A stretch of 64,000 bases of DNA, taken from Goleter apudmare HA4340-LM2. GTDB taxonomy: Bacteria > Cyanobacteriota > Cyanobacteriia > Cyanobacteriales > Nostocaceae. The first letter of the stretch is position 1; every line of letters begins with the position of its first letter. A program made the translations under genes and the position numbers. The notes under the pieces are model-generated. The model was not told where the DNA came from. It ran no database searches and saw only the letters and a list, made by a program, of their open reading frames with translations. The DNA lies in NCBI GenBank assembly GCA_019359495.1, contig JAHHHF010000085.1, positions 1 through 64,000 of the forward strand, in the 5' to 3' direction. Shown here piece by piece: positions 41,885 to 48,992 of this stretch.

Positions 41885-42178
41885 ACGAGTTTAAAAAACT
41901 GATAAACGAGTATCAAAGACTCGTCCACGAGTATCAAAGACTCTCGCGCGAGTATTAAAGACTCGCTCACGAGTGTTAAAGGCTCTCACGCGAGTATCAA
42001 AGACTCGTTCACGAGCATCAAAGACTCGTTCACGAGCATCAAAGACTCATTCACGAGCATCAAAGACTCGCTCACGAGTATTAAAGACTCTCGCACGAGT
42101 ATTAAAGACTCATTCACGAGCATCAAAGACTCATTCACGAGTATCAAAGACTCGTCAACGGAGTTCAGAGACTCATGG
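41885..42178. repeat. Tandem array, fourteen 21-bp units
   Basis: Fourteen contiguous 21-base units in perfect register. The consensus is close to ACGAGTATCAAAGACTCGTTC; the first and last units are degenerate. Each unit carries the small inverted repeat CGAGT/ACTCG, so the transcript could form a row of hairpins. Unit length is a multiple of both 3 and 7, and one plus-strand frame stays open through most of the array with a 7-residue period. That frame lacks an ATG and ribosome-binding site, so I treat it as non-coding. Confidence 0.88.
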
Positions 42179-42262: not shown

Positions 42263-42437
42263 AGAGGATGTTTGAAAAGTTTTGGGCGAATATAATTCGC
42301 TACTACACAAACAAAGTCCGCCTGCGCGGACTAACACAAAATCAAGGTTTTCAACCCACGAAGGTGGGTTTTGCCCGTGTAGCCGCGACTTCCAGTCGCC
42401 AGGGCTAGTATTAATTTAGACTTTTCAAACATCCTCT
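42263..42437. mobile_element. MITE-like element, family D
   Basis: A 175-base element with perfect 18-base ends AGAGGATGTTTGAAAAGT (42263-42280) and its complement (42420-42437). Inside are hairpins, including GTCCGCCTGCGCGGAC and AACCCACGAAGGTGGGTT. The right end abuts the last codons of the GrpE-like gene, so the element probably supplies that operon's 3' end or terminator. Confidence 0.82.
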
Positions 42438-42443
42438 TAAATC

Positions 42444-42923
42444 TCACTCTAATTTAGACGTAATTACTTCCGTGGGACGCAAAATATTTTCTCCCAAATA
42501 AAAACCCTGACGAACAATTTTAGTAATAGTTTGGTCTTCTACATCATTTCTAATTTCCCGATCCACTACACGACACAAATGGAAATCTGGCTGTGTACTT
42601 GGTAATTCTATGGGTACAAGTTGACGTTTTCCTAATATGCTCAAAAACTTACGCTGAACTGCTCCTATATTTCTAGGTAAGCGTTGTAGGAATTCTGGAT
42701 TGGCTTCAGGATTGGTATGCAAGTAATCTAGTAAGGCTTCTAATGCATCAGCAACTTCTAATAGTTCCAGGAATAAATCTTCAATGTTAGCTATGGTTTG
42801 GGTTTGCTGTTCTCGCAAAGACTGCTGTAATTCTACATTTTCTTTTTGGAGTGTACCAAGTTTTTGTATTAGCAAGTCGCGTAATTCTTGGCTGAGATTA
42901 TAAGTTTGGGATGAGTTAGACAC
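42444..42923 (-). CDS. GrpE-like nucleotide exchange factor
   Basis: A 159-residue GrpE-family protein. Its first half is a long helix (QKLGTLQKENVELQQSLREQQ). The C-terminal half has the GrpE beta-wing pattern, TITKIVRQGFYLGENILRPTEVI in two overlapping blocks, matching the canonical end of GrpE. GrpE releases ADP from Hsp70. It is the last gene of the Hsp70 operon and overlaps the J-like gene by 8 bases. It is shorter and more divergent than a housekeeping GrpE, so it is likely dedicated to this Hsp70. Confidence 0.85.
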   Translation of the reverse strand: MSNSSQTYNLSQELRDLLIQKLGTLQKENVELQQSLREQQTQTIANIEDLFLELLEVADALEALLDYLHTNPEANPEFLQRLPRNIGAVQRKFLSILGKRQLVPIELPSTQPDFHLCRVVDREIRNDVEDQTITKIVRQGFYLGENILRPTEVITSKLE

Positions 42924-43530
42924 GGGAAATCTCTCTAGTTAACATTGGTAAGGTTTTGCTAACCCAAGCTTGTACTTGGGGATGGTGATGGTTGCTCAAA
43001 CGCTGACAAATAGCGATCGCTCTTTGTAACTGTCCACCCATCTGGTAAGCTCTGACTAGCCACATCTCGGCTTGAAGATAATTTTGGCTATTGCGGTCTG
43101 TACAGCTTTGGCAGTAATCTTCTAGATATTTGATGGCTTTCGGGTAACGTTGCTCTTGGCAAGCCGTGATGCCTTCAGTAAGCAGTTCTGATGTAGGTGT
43201 GGGTAAAGGCTCTTGCTCTAAACGTTCTTCTTTGGCTGCTTGGGCGATCGCTTGTTCTAATCCATCAAATTCTGGTAATAATACTAGGGTTGGTGCTGGC
43301 TGTTCTAAAGCTGATAAATCGCTATATTTGAATCTCTGAATAGTAGGCAAAATGGGGCGCAAATAGTCGGCTATAATCCGTTCTTCTGGTTTCATCAAGC
43401 TTTTTTGAGCTTTGGCAATCACATCCACAGGATATTGTTTACGCTTCATGGCTAAAGCCACAGATTTTGTAATTTCAGCTTTGGACGCTGCTGGAGTGAC
43501 ACCCAAAATATCGTAAGGATTATGTTCCAA
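42916..43530 (-). CDS. J-domain-like protein lacking HPD
   Basis: A 204-residue protein starting NPYDILGVTPAASKAEITKS, the beginning of a DnaJ J-domain. Where the HPD tripeptide that stimulates Hsp70 ATPase should be, it reads QYPVD (residues 32-36), so HPD is lost. A helical linker follows and then TPR-like helices (about 115-195: LTEGITACQEQRYPKAIKYL, EMWLVRAYQMGGQLQRAIAI). It may dock to the partner Hsp70 without triggering hydrolysis in the usual way. It lies 13 bases after the large repeat protein and overlaps the GrpE-like gene. Confidence 0.8.
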   Translation of the reverse strand: MEHNPYDILGVTPAASKAEITKSVALAMKRKQYPVDVIAKAQKSLMKPEERIIADYLRPILPTIQRFKYSDLSALEQPAPTLVLLPEFDGLEQAIAQAAKEERLEQEPLPTPTSELLTEGITACQEQRYPKAIKYLEDYCQSCTDRNSQNYLQAEMWLVRAYQMGGQLQRAIAICQRLSNHHHPQVQAWVSKTLPMLTREISRV

Positions 43531-43543
43531 TACACACCTCTAA

Positions 43544-46270
43544 TTAACGTAATTTGAGACTACGGAAAATTTCTTGAAATGCAGGTTCATAAGGACAAAG
43601 TTGGTAAGCCCAACGTCCTAATTTCTGAATTAGTTCATAAGATAAATCTCTGTTTTCAATACCTTTAATTAATATGAGAATAAAAAACTCAGCGACATAT
43701 TTCCGAATTGAATCATGTTGTGATTTTTTTGCTAAACTGACAGCTTCATCAAAGCGATCGCGCTTCATCAAATCATGAATATCTTTCAGTTCTTTACTAA
43801 ACTTGTAAATTTCCTGAACATTTTGGTCATCTGGGCAAAGTTCATAAGCCCAACGACCTAAATCATAAATAACTTCAAAGCCCAAATCTCGCTCTTTGAA
43901 ACCTTTGATTAATATGTCTATGCAGATGTCAGTGACAATTTGACGTATGCGTTGATGCGGAGATTTTTTAGCTCGTTTGACGGCTTCTTCAAACTGATCG
44001 TTCTTCAGCAATTTCTCAATCGCTTCCATTTCTTGCTGAAATTCAATCCTCTCACTTAAATCAAGCACAATAGGATTTTGTGCATCTATTCTCTTAATTT
44101 CTTGCAATTCTTTTAAAGCTTTTTCTAAGGAAATTTGTTTCTCTACTAATTGCTCTCGAATTTTTTCAGCTTTGTATTCAGCCAAATAACTTGCAGCAGA
44201 GTTGCTTCTTGAAAGTTCATACCAAGACTGAGCAAACTGCAAATGCTCGGTAAATTCTGAAATTACTTGGCGCTGCAATCCACAAAGTCTATCTATCTCC
44301 TGTTGCCAATTATCATTAGCTTTAATTTCTGACTTTGCTTGTTGAAATAAAATTATTGCCTCTCGCCATTTTTGTTGCTGTAGCTGATAGCAACCTTGAT
44401 GATAGGCAACAAATTTTTTAGCAAATTTTTCAATTTCAGAAGTAGGGTTACTAGCAGGTTGAATTTGTATTCCTCTTTGGCTGTCACCTTCCATAAAAGC
44501 AGCTACAGCTAATCCCCAAGGTGTATAAAGAGAATTTAGTATCTTTTGACTAACATTTATCCTATTTACTAAAACATTTTTCCACTGGTCAAGGTAGCGA
44601 CTGTAACAGCCTGGCGTTAAATATAGATCATTTACCATCATTCCTTGTTTTGCAGACTCACCCATCAATTTCAAGGTGACTGATTCTAAGCGGAAGAGAT
44701 CGCGTAAGTTTAAATAAACATTAATATTTGTATCTTTTAAACTATCTACTGCTGTTTCTAAGCGACGTTGTATTTCTAAAGATACTGATGCGTAATCAAC
44801 CTTTTTACCTAGCCAAGGCACATCTTGCAAAGTTGGATCATGGTTTAAATTCGCTAATGCTGTTGACATAACAATAATCGCATTAGATAGTTTTGACGTG
44901 TCGCTTTGAGCATAGTAATACGTTGCAACTGCTAAATTATGTAATGTGGTAATATTAGTCTGTGATTTCCATATTTTCTCGGACTGAGTAACAACATCTC
45001 TCCAGCTTGAACCTTCCCATATTCTTGCTTCTAAACGTGGCTGAATATGCTGATATAGATTCTCTTCGATTAATTGATCATCACTAAATGTTTGGATAAA
45101 TTCGGTACTTGCTGTTTTAGCTTCATCTAGTTTTTCAGCTTTTACTAACTGCTCGATTTTCTTTAGAGATAGTAAGCGTTGGCGTTGCGAAATACTTTTA
45201 AGAATCTCTCGTTGCTCAGTAATTGCTGTAGATGATAGGCTCTGCCATTCCCGATTAGCTAGTTGTAAATTCTCTTGTTGAGCGTAAGCAAATCCTCGCA
45301 GATAAGCCGCTTGTTCACTAGATAAACCTTCTAGATGAGATAGTGTTGTTTTCCAATCTTGATTCTTAATGGCGACAATTCCTAACCTGATCCGACAGTC
45401 TGTGATATCAGGTAACAGTGATTTAGCATTTTCATACAAAGATACAGATGTTTTGAAATCTCCGGCTTTTTCTGCTGCTAAACCTTGACGAAACAGATCT
45501 TTTCCTTTGACTGTGCGTTGTAGAAATTGTAATAAACCACGTCCATCGGCACGGTTAAAATTAGCAAGGGCATTTTCTAAAAGAGCGATCGCACTCCGTA
45601 ATTTTCCTTCACTTTGAGCTTGCTTTGCCCTTTGTAGAGCAGCATCGTAAATTTCTTCTTCTTTGACTTTGGCTTCAGCCGTAGATATTGCTTGTCTTAC
45701 AGCCTCCGTGGAATAGAGTTTTTCAGCTTCACAGTAAGCTGCGATCGCATTTTTAAAAAATTGCTGTTCTGTGTGGGACTCAGCCTGTGTCACCAATATT
45801 TGGAATTGTTGTCGCCGTTGCAACTCCTTTTGATATTGCTTGATTAGCTGCGATACCCGTTCATCGTGGATAATTTGGCTACAGCGTTCATAAAGAGCGA
45901 TCGCACTTGCGAGGGCTTGTGTTTGTAAAGGGTCGCCAGTATCCTGTTTGAGAACGGTTTTGGCGTTAGCAGCCAGTTTGTTGGCTGCTGCTACTTGTCT
46001 TTGCCAATGCGTTAATTGCTGTTTTAATTTGTCTAAAACATTACCCAAGAGTAATTGACAAATCCACCTTTCCCAGAAACCTGGTTTCTGTGACCAAACA
46101 GCAACGGCTTTTTCAGCAATCCTGACTGCTTCCCGCAGATGCTTATTTTGGGCTAATTGTGTTGATTTTTGGCTGGCTACTTTAGTCTGTGCTGCTTGCT
46201 CCCAAGCATCAATAATTCCTATACCCAGTAAAGTTTTACTGAAGGTGTTAAAACTGTCAAGGACGCTCAT
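43544..46270 (-). CDS. Large helical-repeat (TPR-like) protein of the Hsp70 operon
   Basis: A 908-residue, almost wholly helical protein. From the ATG at 46270 it starts MSVLDSFNTFSKTLLGIG. The start follows AGGAGAAAG and overlaps the previous stop as TAATG, which excludes the upstream in-frame codons. Degenerate TPR-like helix pairs run through most of the length (for example YDAALQRAKQAQSEGKLRSA, GLAAEKAGDFKTSVSLYENA). Two related units near the C-terminus share FEEAVKRAKKS/FDEAVSLAKKS and LGRWAYELCP/LGRWAYQLCP, an internal duplication of about 95 residues. Probably the client- or scaffold-binding part of the chaperone system. No named family recognised. Confidence 0.85.
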   Translation of the reverse strand: MSVLDSFNTFSKTLLGIGIIDAWEQAAQTKVASQKSTQLAQNKHLREAVRIAEKAVAVWSQKPGFWERWICQLLLGNVLDKLKQQLTHWQRQVAAANKLAANAKTVLKQDTGDPLQTQALASAIALYERCSQIIHDERVSQLIKQYQKELQRRQQFQILVTQAESHTEQQFFKNAIAAYCEAEKLYSTEAVRQAISTAEAKVKEEEIYDAALQRAKQAQSEGKLRSAIALLENALANFNRADGRGLLQFLQRTVKGKDLFRQGLAAEKAGDFKTSVSLYENAKSLLPDITDCRIRLGIVAIKNQDWKTTLSHLEGLSSEQAAYLRGFAYAQQENLQLANREWQSLSSTAITEQREILKSISQRQRLLSLKKIEQLVKAEKLDEAKTASTEFIQTFSDDQLIEENLYQHIQPRLEARIWEGSSWRDVVTQSEKIWKSQTNITTLHNLAVATYYYAQSDTSKLSNAIIVMSTALANLNHDPTLQDVPWLGKKVDYASVSLEIQRRLETAVDSLKDTNINVYLNLRDLFRLESVTLKLMGESAKQGMMVNDLYLTPGCYSRYLDQWKNVLVNRINVSQKILNSLYTPWGLAVAAFMEGDSQRGIQIQPASNPTSEIEKFAKKFVAYHQGCYQLQQQKWREAIILFQQAKSEIKANDNWQQEIDRLCGLQRQVISEFTEHLQFAQSWYELSRSNSAASYLAEYKAEKIREQLVEKQISLEKALKELQEIKRIDAQNPIVLDLSERIEFQQEMEAIEKLLKNDQFEEAVKRAKKSPHQRIRQIVTDICIDILIKGFKERDLGFEVIYDLGRWAYELCPDDQNVQEIYKFSKELKDIHDLMKRDRFDEAVSLAKKSQHDSIRKYVAEFFILILIKGIENRDLSYELIQKLGRWAYQLCPYEPAFQEIFRSLKLR

Positions 46271-46782
46271 TAAACTTTCTCCTTGCAGGTGGGAATTTTT
46301 AACACCTCCCCTATGTTTATGTAGTCTTCCCTTCCTTTGAGTTGGGGATTGCTCTTTACTATGACTTGCCAAGAGGTATCTTTACCACAAAATTTTTGGG
46401 CGATCGCACTCAAGTGATCGCCAGATTTGACAATATAGGTAGTCGGTTTTGGGGGTTGGTTGGGTGTAATCGGGATATTTGCCGGAGGTTTTGGGTTGCG
46501 TGGACTCAGTGCAACTGGATTTGGCGAAGAAACAGTTAATGTATTTAACTGCGGTTGCAAAAATATGAAACTGCCAATAGATCCCAAACTCATCCCGATG
46601 ATCAGTATGAACAAAGCAATACCTAATTGCCATCCAGTAAATTTAGCTTGCGGAACTGGAGTTTGAGCCTGTGGTAATTCCTGAAGCATCCGAATTAGGG
46701 AAAGGTCGGTATCACAGTTAGGGCAACTATTAGCCTCTATTTCTTGATACCCGCACACAGGACAATTGAGCTTAATATTCAT
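46270..46782 (-). CDS. Zinc-ribbon, transmembrane, LysM protein of the Hsp70 operon
   Basis: A 170-residue protein from the ATG at 46782, which overlaps the Hsp70 stop as ATGA. Domains in order: a zinc ribbon (Cys7, Cys10, Cys20, Cys23), one transmembrane helix (about 52-76), a Pro-rich linker (about 86-113) and a LysM domain (about 115-166: TYIVKSGDHLSAIAQKF, ending YINIGEVLKIPT). LysM usually binds peptidoglycan, which would put it in the periplasm with the zinc ribbon in the cytoplasm, so the protein could tether the chaperone to the envelope. Upstream in-frame codons to 46833 lie inside the Hsp70 gene and are rejected. Confidence 0.87.
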   Translation of the reverse strand: MNIKLNCPVCGYQEIEANSCPNCDTDLSLIRMLQELPQAQTPVPQAKFTGWQLGIALFILIIGMSLGSIGSFIFLQPQLNTLTVSSPNPVALSPRNPKPPANIPITPNQPPKPTTYIVKSGDHLSAIAQKFCGKDTSWQVIVKSNPQLKGREDYINIGEVLKIPTCKEKV

Positions 46783-48992
46783 CGCTTCAGTCCTGTGACA
46801 ATCATATTGCTGGGCAAGTCTTGATTGAGCCAATACTTCACATCTGGTTGCAGTTCACCCCACAAACGATCAGCTTCGTGTCCGTCACCTCTTTCGATAG
46901 CAGCAAGCATACGAGAGAGTTTGTCAGACATTGCATTTGCTTGAGTAGGCGCAATTGCGTGGGCTTGGCGGATTGCTAAAATACAAGCTTGAATTAGTTG
47001 TACTTCATCAGGTAGATTGCGGAGTTCTCGTTTTGTATCTTCGCTCCGAGACTGCATTCTAGAAATGTCATTGGTATTAATGGCATGTTGCAATTCTTGG
47101 CTGAGTTTTTGTAATCTTTCTTGTTGTGGTTGCGGAATAATAGAACTGCAAAGTTTAACCACGCGATCGCATTCATTAACCAGGGATTCCGCTTCTAGAC
47201 GTTCACTAGACATAGATACCTGAAATTTTTTGAGGTTAGCACTAGCGCGATCGCGTAAATCGCTGCGTTCTTCTCCCGTCTTGGTATCGATAATTTGATT
47301 AGTTAATTGCACAACTGGTACAGCTAACCCTAGCGCTTCTTCCACACCAATAGGAGTTAGACCTTGGTTATTGAGTTCTGCGATCGCTGTTTCTAATTCT
47401 GTATAAATTTTCTCGTCTGAACGTCCCCGTGAAAAAACATGACTAATACTCACCGCAGGATCGTTTTTCAACGTCGCCCGCATTTGTAAAGGGCTATTAT
47501 TTTCATCCAGTTCTAAATTCACTAGAATTTCTGTTCCGACGGGGTACTTTTGTCCTAAGCCTAACCACATCTCACCAATACTTTCATCATGTTTACCCCT
47601 ATCTAATTCTTGCCTAATTTCATCAGGGTTAAAAAACTGGAAGTGAATTAAGCGTTGTCCTTCCGCTACGGTTTTGAAGGTATGTGATGTTTTTACTGGT
47701 AAAATTTCACCTTGGCTAATAACTTTTTCCTGACCATCCACTAATTTAATAAAGTAATCGCGGGAGACTGTTGTTACTTTGTCTGTCAATCCAGCAGCCA
47801 CAATTGCTGCACCCTCTGCTACCGCATACATTGGGCGGGGATGCAGTACTACTTTACTAGCACCAAAAGCCGCTTTAACTTTGCTTTGGACCAAAGGAAT
47901 TTGAGAAGAACCGCCTACTAAAAGCACCATATCAACCATTTCTAAATGGTATTCAGCATAATTGAGTGCTTGGCGACAAATCTGAATGGAACGGTCTACC
48001 AAATCAGTAATCATTTCCTCAAACTGTTCGCGGGTAATTGTTACCTCAATAGGGATAGCAATTCCCAATTCATCTAGTAATTGAGTAGCAGGATCAATCC
48101 GCGCAACCGTAGCACTGCTTAACTCTACTTTCGCCCTTTCTACTGCTATTTTCAGTTCGGCGTTAAATCGCACCCGTTGATAGTAAGGCATTTTAGCAAT
48201 TAAATCGTCAATATCGGCAATTCTTTCTTGTTGGCCGACTTGCTCTTTGACAAACTTAATCATGCGAGAGTCAATATCATCCCCTCCTAGCCACAAGTCT
48301 CCGGCTTTTCCCTGTTCAATAAATGAAGTTCCGGCTGCTGTAATTAAGGAAGCATCAAATGTACCACCGCCAAAGTCGTACACTAAAATCGTTTTCACAT
48401 CATCACTATCAGGAGAAAAACCATAAGAAATGGCGGCGGCTGTAGGTTCTGCTAGCAGTTCTAAAGGATTGATTCCCGCTCTCTTGGCAGCCATGCGGGT
48501 AGCATGGCGCTGTTTATCATTGAAGTAGGCGGGGACGGTAATTACAGCTTGGTCGATCACTTCACTACTTTGACCAATTCCCTGACGATAAGCTTGGGCA
48601 TTATGCACTACTTTTTTGAGAATCTCAGCCGAAATATCCTCAGGCTCGTATTCTTTACCTCCCAGCCAAACCGCAATACTGTTGTCTGTTCCTTGACTCG
48701 GTTGGGTAATTTTATAGCCAACTTCCAACTTTTGTTTTTCCACTGCTGAGTCGCCAAACCCCCTACCCATCAAGCGTTTGATAGAAATAATGACGTTTTC
48801 AGGGTCAGCCCGTAGTTGGTTGTAAGCTTTATCTCCTACCAACAACTTACCTTGCTCGCAAGCAACAAGCGATCGCGTTAATTTCCTATCTGGGGGTGTA
48901 TTATCCTTAGCGGTTACTACCTCTACACCCGCTAACTTAAAAGCTGCTACGGAATTAGTTGTTCCCAAATCAATCCCAATTGCTTTACCCAT
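46779..48992 (-). CDS. Hsp70-family chaperone (DnaK-like, divergent C-terminus)
   Basis: A 737-residue Hsp70 and the first gene of a five-gene operon. The ATPase domain is intact: GIDLGTTNSV (6-15), AYFNDKQRHATRMAAKRAG, EPTAAAISYGF, YDFGGGTFD (205-213) and LVGGSSQIPLV. The substrate-binding beta domain (about 410-530) is divergent. The C-terminal region (about 540-737) is a long helical segment without the usual lid end. It is about 100 residues longer than typical DnaK, so it is a specialised paralogue. The stop codon overlaps the start of the LysM gene. The 264-base upstream spacer should hold the promoter. Confidence 0.93.
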   Translation of the reverse strand: MGKAIGIDLGTTNSVAAFKLAGVEVVTAKDNTPPDRKLTRSLVACEQGKLLVGDKAYNQLRADPENVIISIKRLMGRGFGDSAVEKQKLEVGYKITQPSQGTDNSIAVWLGGKEYEPEDISAEILKKVVHNAQAYRQGIGQSSEVIDQAVITVPAYFNDKQRHATRMAAKRAGINPLELLAEPTAAAISYGFSPDSDDVKTILVYDFGGGTFDASLITAAGTSFIEQGKAGDLWLGGDDIDSRMIKFVKEQVGQQERIADIDDLIAKMPYYQRVRFNAELKIAVERAKVELSSATVARIDPATQLLDELGIAIPIEVTITREQFEEMITDLVDRSIQICRQALNYAEYHLEMVDMVLLVGGSSQIPLVQSKVKAAFGASKVVLHPRPMYAVAEGAAIVAAGLTDKVTTVSRDYFIKLVDGQEKVISQGEILPVKTSHTFKTVAEGQRLIHFQFFNPDEIRQELDRGKHDESIGEMWLGLGQKYPVGTEILVNLELDENNSPLQMRATLKNDPAVSISHVFSRGRSDEKIYTELETAIAELNNQGLTPIGVEEALGLAVPVVQLTNQIIDTKTGEERSDLRDRASANLKKFQVSMSSERLEAESLVNECDRVVKLCSSIIPQPQQERLQKLSQELQHAINTNDISRMQSRSEDTKRELRNLPDEVQLIQACILAIRQAHAIAPTQANAMSDKLSRMLAAIERGDGHEADRLWGELQPDVKYWLNQDLPSNMIVTGLKR

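Follow-up and report, generated by a model that had tools for sequence, protein, structure and literature searches.

Organization of the five-gene locus

The window, a stretch of 64,000 nucleotides from contig JAHHHF010000085.1 of the cyanobacterium Goleter apudmare HA4340-LM2, carries an operon of five minus-strand genes which encode an Hsp70, a short protein with a zinc ribbon, one predicted transmembrane (TM) helix and a LysM domain (the LysM-type protein), a large helical-repeat solenoid protein (Rep), a J-like protein and a short GrpE-like protein (Table 1). Consecutive genes are joined by ATGA (Hsp70/LysM-type) and TAATG (LysM-type/Rep), 13 bases lie between the Rep and J-like genes, and the J-like and GrpE-like genes overlap by 8 bases; all five open reading frames (ORFs) and all four junctions are exactly where an earlier sequence-only reading of this DNA had placed them. 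In Pfam searches with the five proteins HSP70, LysM and GrpE scored above their cut-offs, and the zinc ribbon (15.7), the J domain (16.5) and tetratricopeptide repeats (TPRs) below them. Promoter and terminator scans gave 11 sites versus 16.3 in shuffled sequences and 6 versus 6.2, in neither case an excess.

Table 1. Genes of the operon and the features discussed in the text, with positions in the window
Feature	Position	Strand	Residues	Basis or remark
Hsp70	46779-48992	minus	737 aa	Pfam HSP70, 324 bits, above cut-off
Glu178 at the DnaK Arg167 position (residue pairing with Asp of HPD)	48459-48461	minus	178	alignment
Shortened interdomain linker	47754-47783	minus	404-413	DnaK LLLDVT missing
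C-terminal Hsp70 tail	46782-46805	minus	730-737	conserved motif
Zinc-ribbon/single-TM/LysM protein	46270-46782	minus	170 aa	counted from ATG
Zinc ribbon CPVC-x9-CPNC	46714-46764	minus		sequence motif
Predicted TM helix	46558-46614	minus	57-75	hydropathy 2.34
LysM domain	46291-46437	minus		Pfam PF01476, 38.4 bits vs cut-off 20.9
Helical-repeat solenoid protein (Rep)	43544-46270	minus	908 aa	
TPR domain of Rep	45125-45529	minus	248-382	structure and profile matches
J-like (J-fold) protein	42916-43530	minus	204 aa	TTG start
Shortened helix II/III loop KRKQYPVD at the HPD position	43423-43446	minus		
Short GrpE-like protein	42444-42923	minus	159 aa	GTG start; Pfam GrpE, 60 bits vs cut-off 25.8

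Conservation and spread of the gene set

When two Hsp70 motifs were scanned over genome contigs, 169 pattern matches were obtained, of which 104 were non-relatives and 65 were relatives, every one with a cyanobacterial title. All five genes stand in the same order and on the same strand in 53 of these 65 named loci, while among the 12 incomplete ones eight stop at contig ends (L156, L159, L166, L171, L172, L173, L179, and L187) and four are incomplete without a contig end as the cause (L149, L150, L169, and L185). The confinement of the five-gene system to cyanobacteria is likely rather than proved, since the motif scan is blind to relatives without those motifs. In the 54 five-gene loci (53 named and the window), scored for open frames and not for start codons, the downstream frame is open back to the preceding stop at 48 Hsp70-LysM, 41 LysM-solenoid, 17 solenoid-J, and 46 J-GrpE junctions.

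A search with the solenoid protein in 291 genomes of the class, the window's own included, gave a match at E ≤0.001 in 26 and at E ≤1e-10 in 22. The 20 regions derived from it (L041-L060) all have the order Hsp70, LysM, solenoid, J-like, GrpE, with all five genes present in 16 and the other four (L048, L054, L056, and L060) cut off by contig ends; in the most distant of them solenoid identity falls to 24–30%. One more locus (L061 in G284) has the last three genes, running to the contig end. Among the weak solenoid matches, G245 is a remnant with pieces of four of the five genes, and G042, G097, and G207 have none of the five at E 1e-4.

A J-like profile applied to 386 genomes of the phylum found 28 strong matches (E <1e-22) and 33 weak ones (E 1e-5 to 1e-3), the latter not being counted; at most 11 candidates were scored per genome, so misses are possible. 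One weak match (G395) proved to be a remnant. Among the 20 regions taken from this survey (L103-L122) matches to all five genes were present in 17, in L116 as fragments only, while L112 is without Hsp70 and LysM genes, L122 without solenoid and GrpE genes, and L115 without the Hsp70 gene at a contig end; partial or broken copies occur in L062, L112, L116, and L122. The LysM gene is placed ahead of the Hsp70 gene in L103, and the remaining regions retain the standard order. The counts of named and unnamed loci overlap and are therefore not to be added. L103, with all five genes, belongs to a 98% complete genome of another class, in which a PsbA/PsbD-type search gave no match, so its organism is probably not photosynthetic. 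Such a match was also absent from a 98% complete Leptolyngbyaceae metagenome-assembled genome of Cyanobacteriia (L186 in G014), where an assembly gap may be the reason.

That 53 of 65 loci keep the same five genes in one order, despite this divergence of the solenoid protein, makes chance adjacency unlikely, and together with the genome of another class it shows conservation in distant as well as close relatives, so that the refuting condition set in the sequence-only reading, a lack of such conservation, does not apply; the suggestion of a specialised system, made in the sequence-only reading, is therefore upheld as regards a conserved five-gene set across the cyanobacterial genomes searched. 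No sixth conserved gene was found, the commonest flanking family occurring in 11 loci (flanking ORFs of at least 90 aa, E 1e-8).

The operon Hsp70s form a single clade apart from six other Hsp70s (Shimodaira-Hasegawa-like approximate likelihood ratio test 100, by a quick method with long branches flagged). Evolution of the set mostly tracks taxonomy, and its patchy spread implies many losses. A few Nostocales Hsp70s cluster with other orders; since those of L178, L173, L181, and L182 fall outside the main Nostocales clade, some transfer is suggested. For a transfer of the entire cassette to L178 the signs are mixed, as its Hsp70, LysM, J, and GrpE are each matched best by proteins from outside the Nostocales set and its Rep by one from within. 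Distance correlations over the 54 loci (Hsp70-Rep r 0.91, Hsp70-GrpE 0.89, Hsp70-LysM 0.59) have no species-tree control and are not evidence.

An Hsp70 with a changed switch and intact ATPase residues

The HPD motif, R167, and the interdomain linker are described as the core of Hsp70 switching, with R167, D35 of HPD, and L391/L392 of the linker central to J-domain action, in two reports (PMC7289447, PMC13012618). For the operon Hsp70s these positions were read from an alignment of 61 family members of 690–800 residues with E. coli DnaK and with five DnaK-type proteins encoded elsewhere in this genome, five of the 66 Hsp70 loci, window included, being excluded by length (L143, L150, L159, L161, and L185). 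The ATPase residues at DnaK positions K70, E171, T199, and D201 are kept in 61/61. The R167 position is occupied by Glu in 59 and by Ile in two, the five other DnaK-type proteins having R, R, R, R, and Q; columns 390–395 (LLLDVT) are gapped in all 61, and a phmmer alignment to DnaK places a gap at the same site. The operon Hsp70 thus has neither the VLLLD linker nor the R167 of DnaK-type proteins, and it falls short of the NCBIfam cut-offs for DnaK equivalogs (311.1 bits versus 648 and 304.2 versus 822.55). The loss of DnaK D481 was dropped as a distinguishing change, since all five other DnaK-type proteins have Asn there too.

At the other end of the protein the tail [IV]-x-T-G-[LI]-x(1-3) terminates 56 of 60 Hsp70s (L187 was omitted as truncated), its Thr and Gly each being 97% conserved versus a mean of 54% over the seven residues preceding the last eight. 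This tail is a candidate dock for the TPR solenoid.

The J-like and GrpE-like partners

The predicted structure of the J-like protein (mean predicted local distance difference test, pLDDT, 78) aligns with J domains over residues 1–63 (2och: Z 8.5, 58 aligned, root-mean-square deviation (rmsd) 2.6), and the structural matches are mostly J domains, with a best Foldseek E of 5.6e-3; a J-domain fold is supported by this model. The HPD tripeptide is found in none of 55 J-like proteins, where its position is mostly [YH]-P-x-D following a basic helix II. Kinship with Ftn2/ARC6 was not favoured (profile E 1.2e-5 versus 1.5e-7 to ordinary DnaJ). The GrpE-like protein belongs to GrpE by its profile score of 60 bits, with profile matches to the GrpE of 4ani (7.7e-10) and 1dkg (4.2e-8), and its activity as a nucleotide exchange factor is presumed.

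The sequence-only reading had placed Hsp70, J-protein, and GrpE in one catalytic cycle. Operation of the standard cycle is not supported, with HPD in 0/55, R167 lost, and the linker core deleted in 61/61.

Some loci carry rearranged copies of these genes. A second tandem Hsp70 copy is fused to the J-like protein in L106 (7075-9513) and L117 (6965-9133), and another ends at the contig end in L171 (12446-12943); nucleotide-site motifs are degenerate in the copies of L106, where it is the phosphate-binding motif, and L171. In L150 an Hsp70 minus most of its substrate domain is joined to the J-like protein, which looks like a deletion product.

The membrane protein and the solenoid

The zinc ribbon is kept in 62/62 LysM-type proteins (58 via a pattern, 4 by eye), each of which also has one predicted TM helix, and LysM is present in 50 of them (45 via a loose pattern, 5 by eye). 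Lys and Arg residues average 2.0 before the TM helix, on the zinc-ribbon side, versus 0.72 after it (58 family members), a distribution that favours a LysM on the outer side. Other proteins of the set may reach the membrane as well. A predicted N-terminal TM helix is seen in 13 of 60 solenoid ORFs, which were taken from stop to stop so that the start may lie later; three of these, the Pseudanabaena-type L050, L052, and L053, begin with TM-LysM-TM. The J-like protein extends via a TM helix into SPOR-like repeats in L046, L054, and three of the 55 J-like proteins from named loci (L157, L158, and L162), and in L177 an adjoining ORF has similar repeats by eye, with no Pfam match. Judged from these sequence features, anchoring of the Hsp70 set at the envelope via the zinc-ribbon/TM protein is supported.

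The AlphaFold2 model of Rep, built from 13 sequences (mean pLDDT 88.1, predicted template modelling score 0.48), is helical save for one short hairpin. Its TPR domain aligns roughly equally with Tom71/Tom70, PP5, HOP, and designed TPRs (VIA-align Z about 12–14.6), 2gw1 (Z 14.3, 118 aligned, rmsd 1.3) being one of the matches, and its profile matches are to an engineered TPR (4.1e-9) and MamA (3.8e-6). The model and the fold matches lend support to the idea that the 908-residue protein, a TPR solenoid of scaffold type, may serve as scaffold, as had been proposed. The C-terminus of Rep (43547-44059) contains an apparent duplication of ~85 residues, which is single-copy in several relatives.

A second chaperone set in the same genome

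Another run of TPR, J, GrpE, Hsp70, and zinc-ribbon-TPR genes lies on one strand over 7.2 kb of contig C72 (L066:3702-10881). Its products are a TPR protein (858-aa ORF), a 106-aa J protein lacking HPD, a GrpE and, after an unrelated ORF, an Hsp70 whose R167 position is Gln and a short zinc-ribbon/TPR protein, the ribbon being recognised by eye. The set resembles the window operon in its TPR protein, HPD-less small J, GrpE, R167-less Hsp70, and short zinc-ribbon protein, and differs from it in gene order, in the unrelated ORF between its GrpE and Hsp70 genes, and in an Hsp70 that keeps the linker (ILVDV) and scores 539 bits as Hsp70. A Pfam scan of its five proteins found no LysM.

Close relatives of this second Hsp70 (65–71%) occur in 5 of 76 other genomes searched. 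The TPR-J-GrpE-Hsp70 order is kept in L207, L209, and L211, and GrpE and Hsp70 are seen in L208 and in L210, which like L211 is a short contig; none of L207-L211 showed the zinc-ribbon protein, and Gln occupies the R167 position in the three examined, L207-L209. HPD and R167 are thus lost together both here and in the window operon, each time beside a TPR partner, and by its sequence the C72 set would be the milder joint change.

Comparison with known chaperone systems

With the canonical DnaK-DnaJ-GrpE system the operon shares an Hsp70 with intact ATPase residues, a predicted J fold, and a GrpE profile, and it differs by the absence of HPD, R167 replaced by Glu, a deleted linker core, two extra partners, and a predicted membrane anchor. 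The mitochondrial import motor (presequence translocase-associated motor, PAM) comprises mtHsp70, Pam16/Pam18, Tim44, and Mge1, where Pam16 is J-like without HPD, Tim44 is a membrane scaffold, and Mge1 is a GrpE. By analogy only, the operon resembles it in a putatively membrane-tethered Hsp70 with GrpE and an HPD-less J-like protein, whereas the operon has no HPD-bearing Pam18-like partner and no channel gene. A J domain without HPD is shared also with the Ftn2/ARC6 type, represented in the same genome by L197, whose ORF also encodes an ARC6-like IMS domain. Tail docking as in Tom70, HOP, and CHIP offers a further parallel, the operon likewise pairing a TPR domain with an Hsp70 whose C-terminal tail is conserved. 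The tail docked by TPRs in Hsp70/Hsp90 systems is EEVD, unlike [IV]-x-T-G-[LI] of the operon Hsp70, for which docking is putative.

The DnaK1/DnaJ3/GrpE set of Nostoc punctiforme is likewise a specialised cyanobacterial Hsp70 set, tied there to an envelope machine, the type IV pili (PMC9239167). In that species dnaK1 sits between grpE and dnaJ11, an arrangement that the operon does not have; in this genome a grpE-dnaK-dnaJ arrangement is found by position on contig C39 (L003), outside the operon Hsp70 clade, and L005 was accordingly rejected as the DnaK1 counterpart. Searches of open-licence papers gave no title or opening of an abstract that names the operon; a description may exist elsewhere.

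Interpretation of the operon

The favoured explanation, with a probability of about 0.5, is a dedicated Hsp70 machine, tethered to the membrane and rewired in its trigger, of which we infer the complex, sidedness, gating, and client. The Hsp70 machine would work on the inner side of the plasma membrane, with the zinc-ribbon/TM protein as its anchor, usually touching the wall with periplasmic LysM, and with the TPR solenoid as a scaffold that probably docks the conserved Hsp70 tail, while nucleotide resetting would fall to the GrpE-like protein. With [YH]-P-x-D for HPD, the J-like protein may recruit or position Hsp70 with no standard triggering of hydrolysis, because changes affect HPD, R167, and the linker core alike; by the same changes hydrolysis would be gated otherwise, possibly by a client, the scaffold, or a membrane partner, and the client may be an envelope or membrane protein.

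Several observations weigh against this picture. The Asp is one position late in 39/55 J-like proteins, so a shifted HPD-like function is possible, and other interdomain residues are retained (Y145, D148, and P419 in 61/61, N147 in 59/61), so some allostery may remain. In L103, whose Hsp70 shares the Glu and the short linker (by eye), the tail is different. Designed TPRs match Rep as well as Tom70 does, and helical repeats commonly score Z below about 13 according to the comparison tool; as they reach such values easily, the match speaks for fold and not for function. LysM is absent in 12/62 proteins (L145, L151-L154, L156, L169, L173, L178, and L180-L182), and Pfam SPOR is at or over cut-off only in L046 and L054 (2 of 6 tested) and below it in L157, L158, and L162; of the earlier proposal of envelope anchoring through the LysM/TM protein the membrane anchor is supported, with zinc ribbon and predicted TM helix in all 62, and the wall link is usual and not universal. 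Adjacency alone is no proof of pairing, since in Nostoc punctiforme a two-hybrid assay showed no interaction of DnaK1 with the protein encoded by the neighbouring dnaJ11 (PMC9239167).

A bolder version is offered tentatively and with clearly lower confidence: a wall-reading, ATP-driven chaperone whose on-switch has changed in both partners and whose private gate would be tail docking on the membrane-held TPR solenoid under LysM/SPOR-like wall contact; at least one further Hsp70 set of cyanobacteria would have gone the same way.

Among the alternatives, an unlikely one is a PAM-like motor for membrane assembly or export, which would pull or assemble envelope protein with the J-like protein as Pam16, GrpE as Mge1, and the scaffold as Tim44; its similar cast of Hsp70, GrpE, HPD-less J-like protein, and membrane-linked scaffold is an analogy, set against an operon with no channel or client gene and no HPD-bearing J partner, and against the lack of a widely shared neighbour gene. 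Somewhat less probable still is a sensor of wall state, in which outside LysM/SPOR-like parts would signal through the TM helix to Hsp70, which would then switch a regulator, or an enzyme of division or of the wall, inside the cell. The occurrence of two types of extracytoplasmic module, spread over different members of the set, would suit it, but LysM is absent in the loci listed above, few loci have SPOR-like parts and most of these score under the Pfam cut-off, and no regulator gene is widely common to the neighbourhoods.

That the operon is an ordinary extra DnaK/DnaJ/GrpE stress paralogue with two passenger genes is improbable. The chaperone trio is recognisable by Pfam, some interdomain residues survive, and multiple DnaKs are frequent in cyanobacteria, with more than one in 18.9% of 180 genomes (PMC11019930); against this, the five genes remain together, neither HPD nor R167 nor the linker core is left, and the Hsp70 forms a distinct clade. 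An anti-phage or other conflict system, which the patchy spread (strong J-like matches in 28/386 genomes) and the few Nostocales Hsp70s grouping with other orders might recall, is very improbable, given 0 PADLOC matches for the five proteins at E 0.01, an Hsp70 tree that largely follows taxonomy, and no recognised defence-type effector.

The operon Hsp70, which is widespread in cyanobacteria and keeps its ATPase residues while R167 and the linker have changed in step with the HPD site of the neighbouring J-like protein, is a natural experiment on alternative Hsp70 gating, for which the C72 set provides a milder comparison. A chaperone and modules that bind the cell wall also come together here in a single conserved operon, so that coupling between the two can be tested in cyanobacteria that grow in culture.

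DNA downstream of the operon

Directly past the GrpE-like gene an 18-base perfect inverted repeat with arms 139 bases apart (42263-42437) looks like a small element of the miniature inverted-repeat transposable element type, and further downstream (41906-42174) a 21-base unit is repeated 12.8 times.

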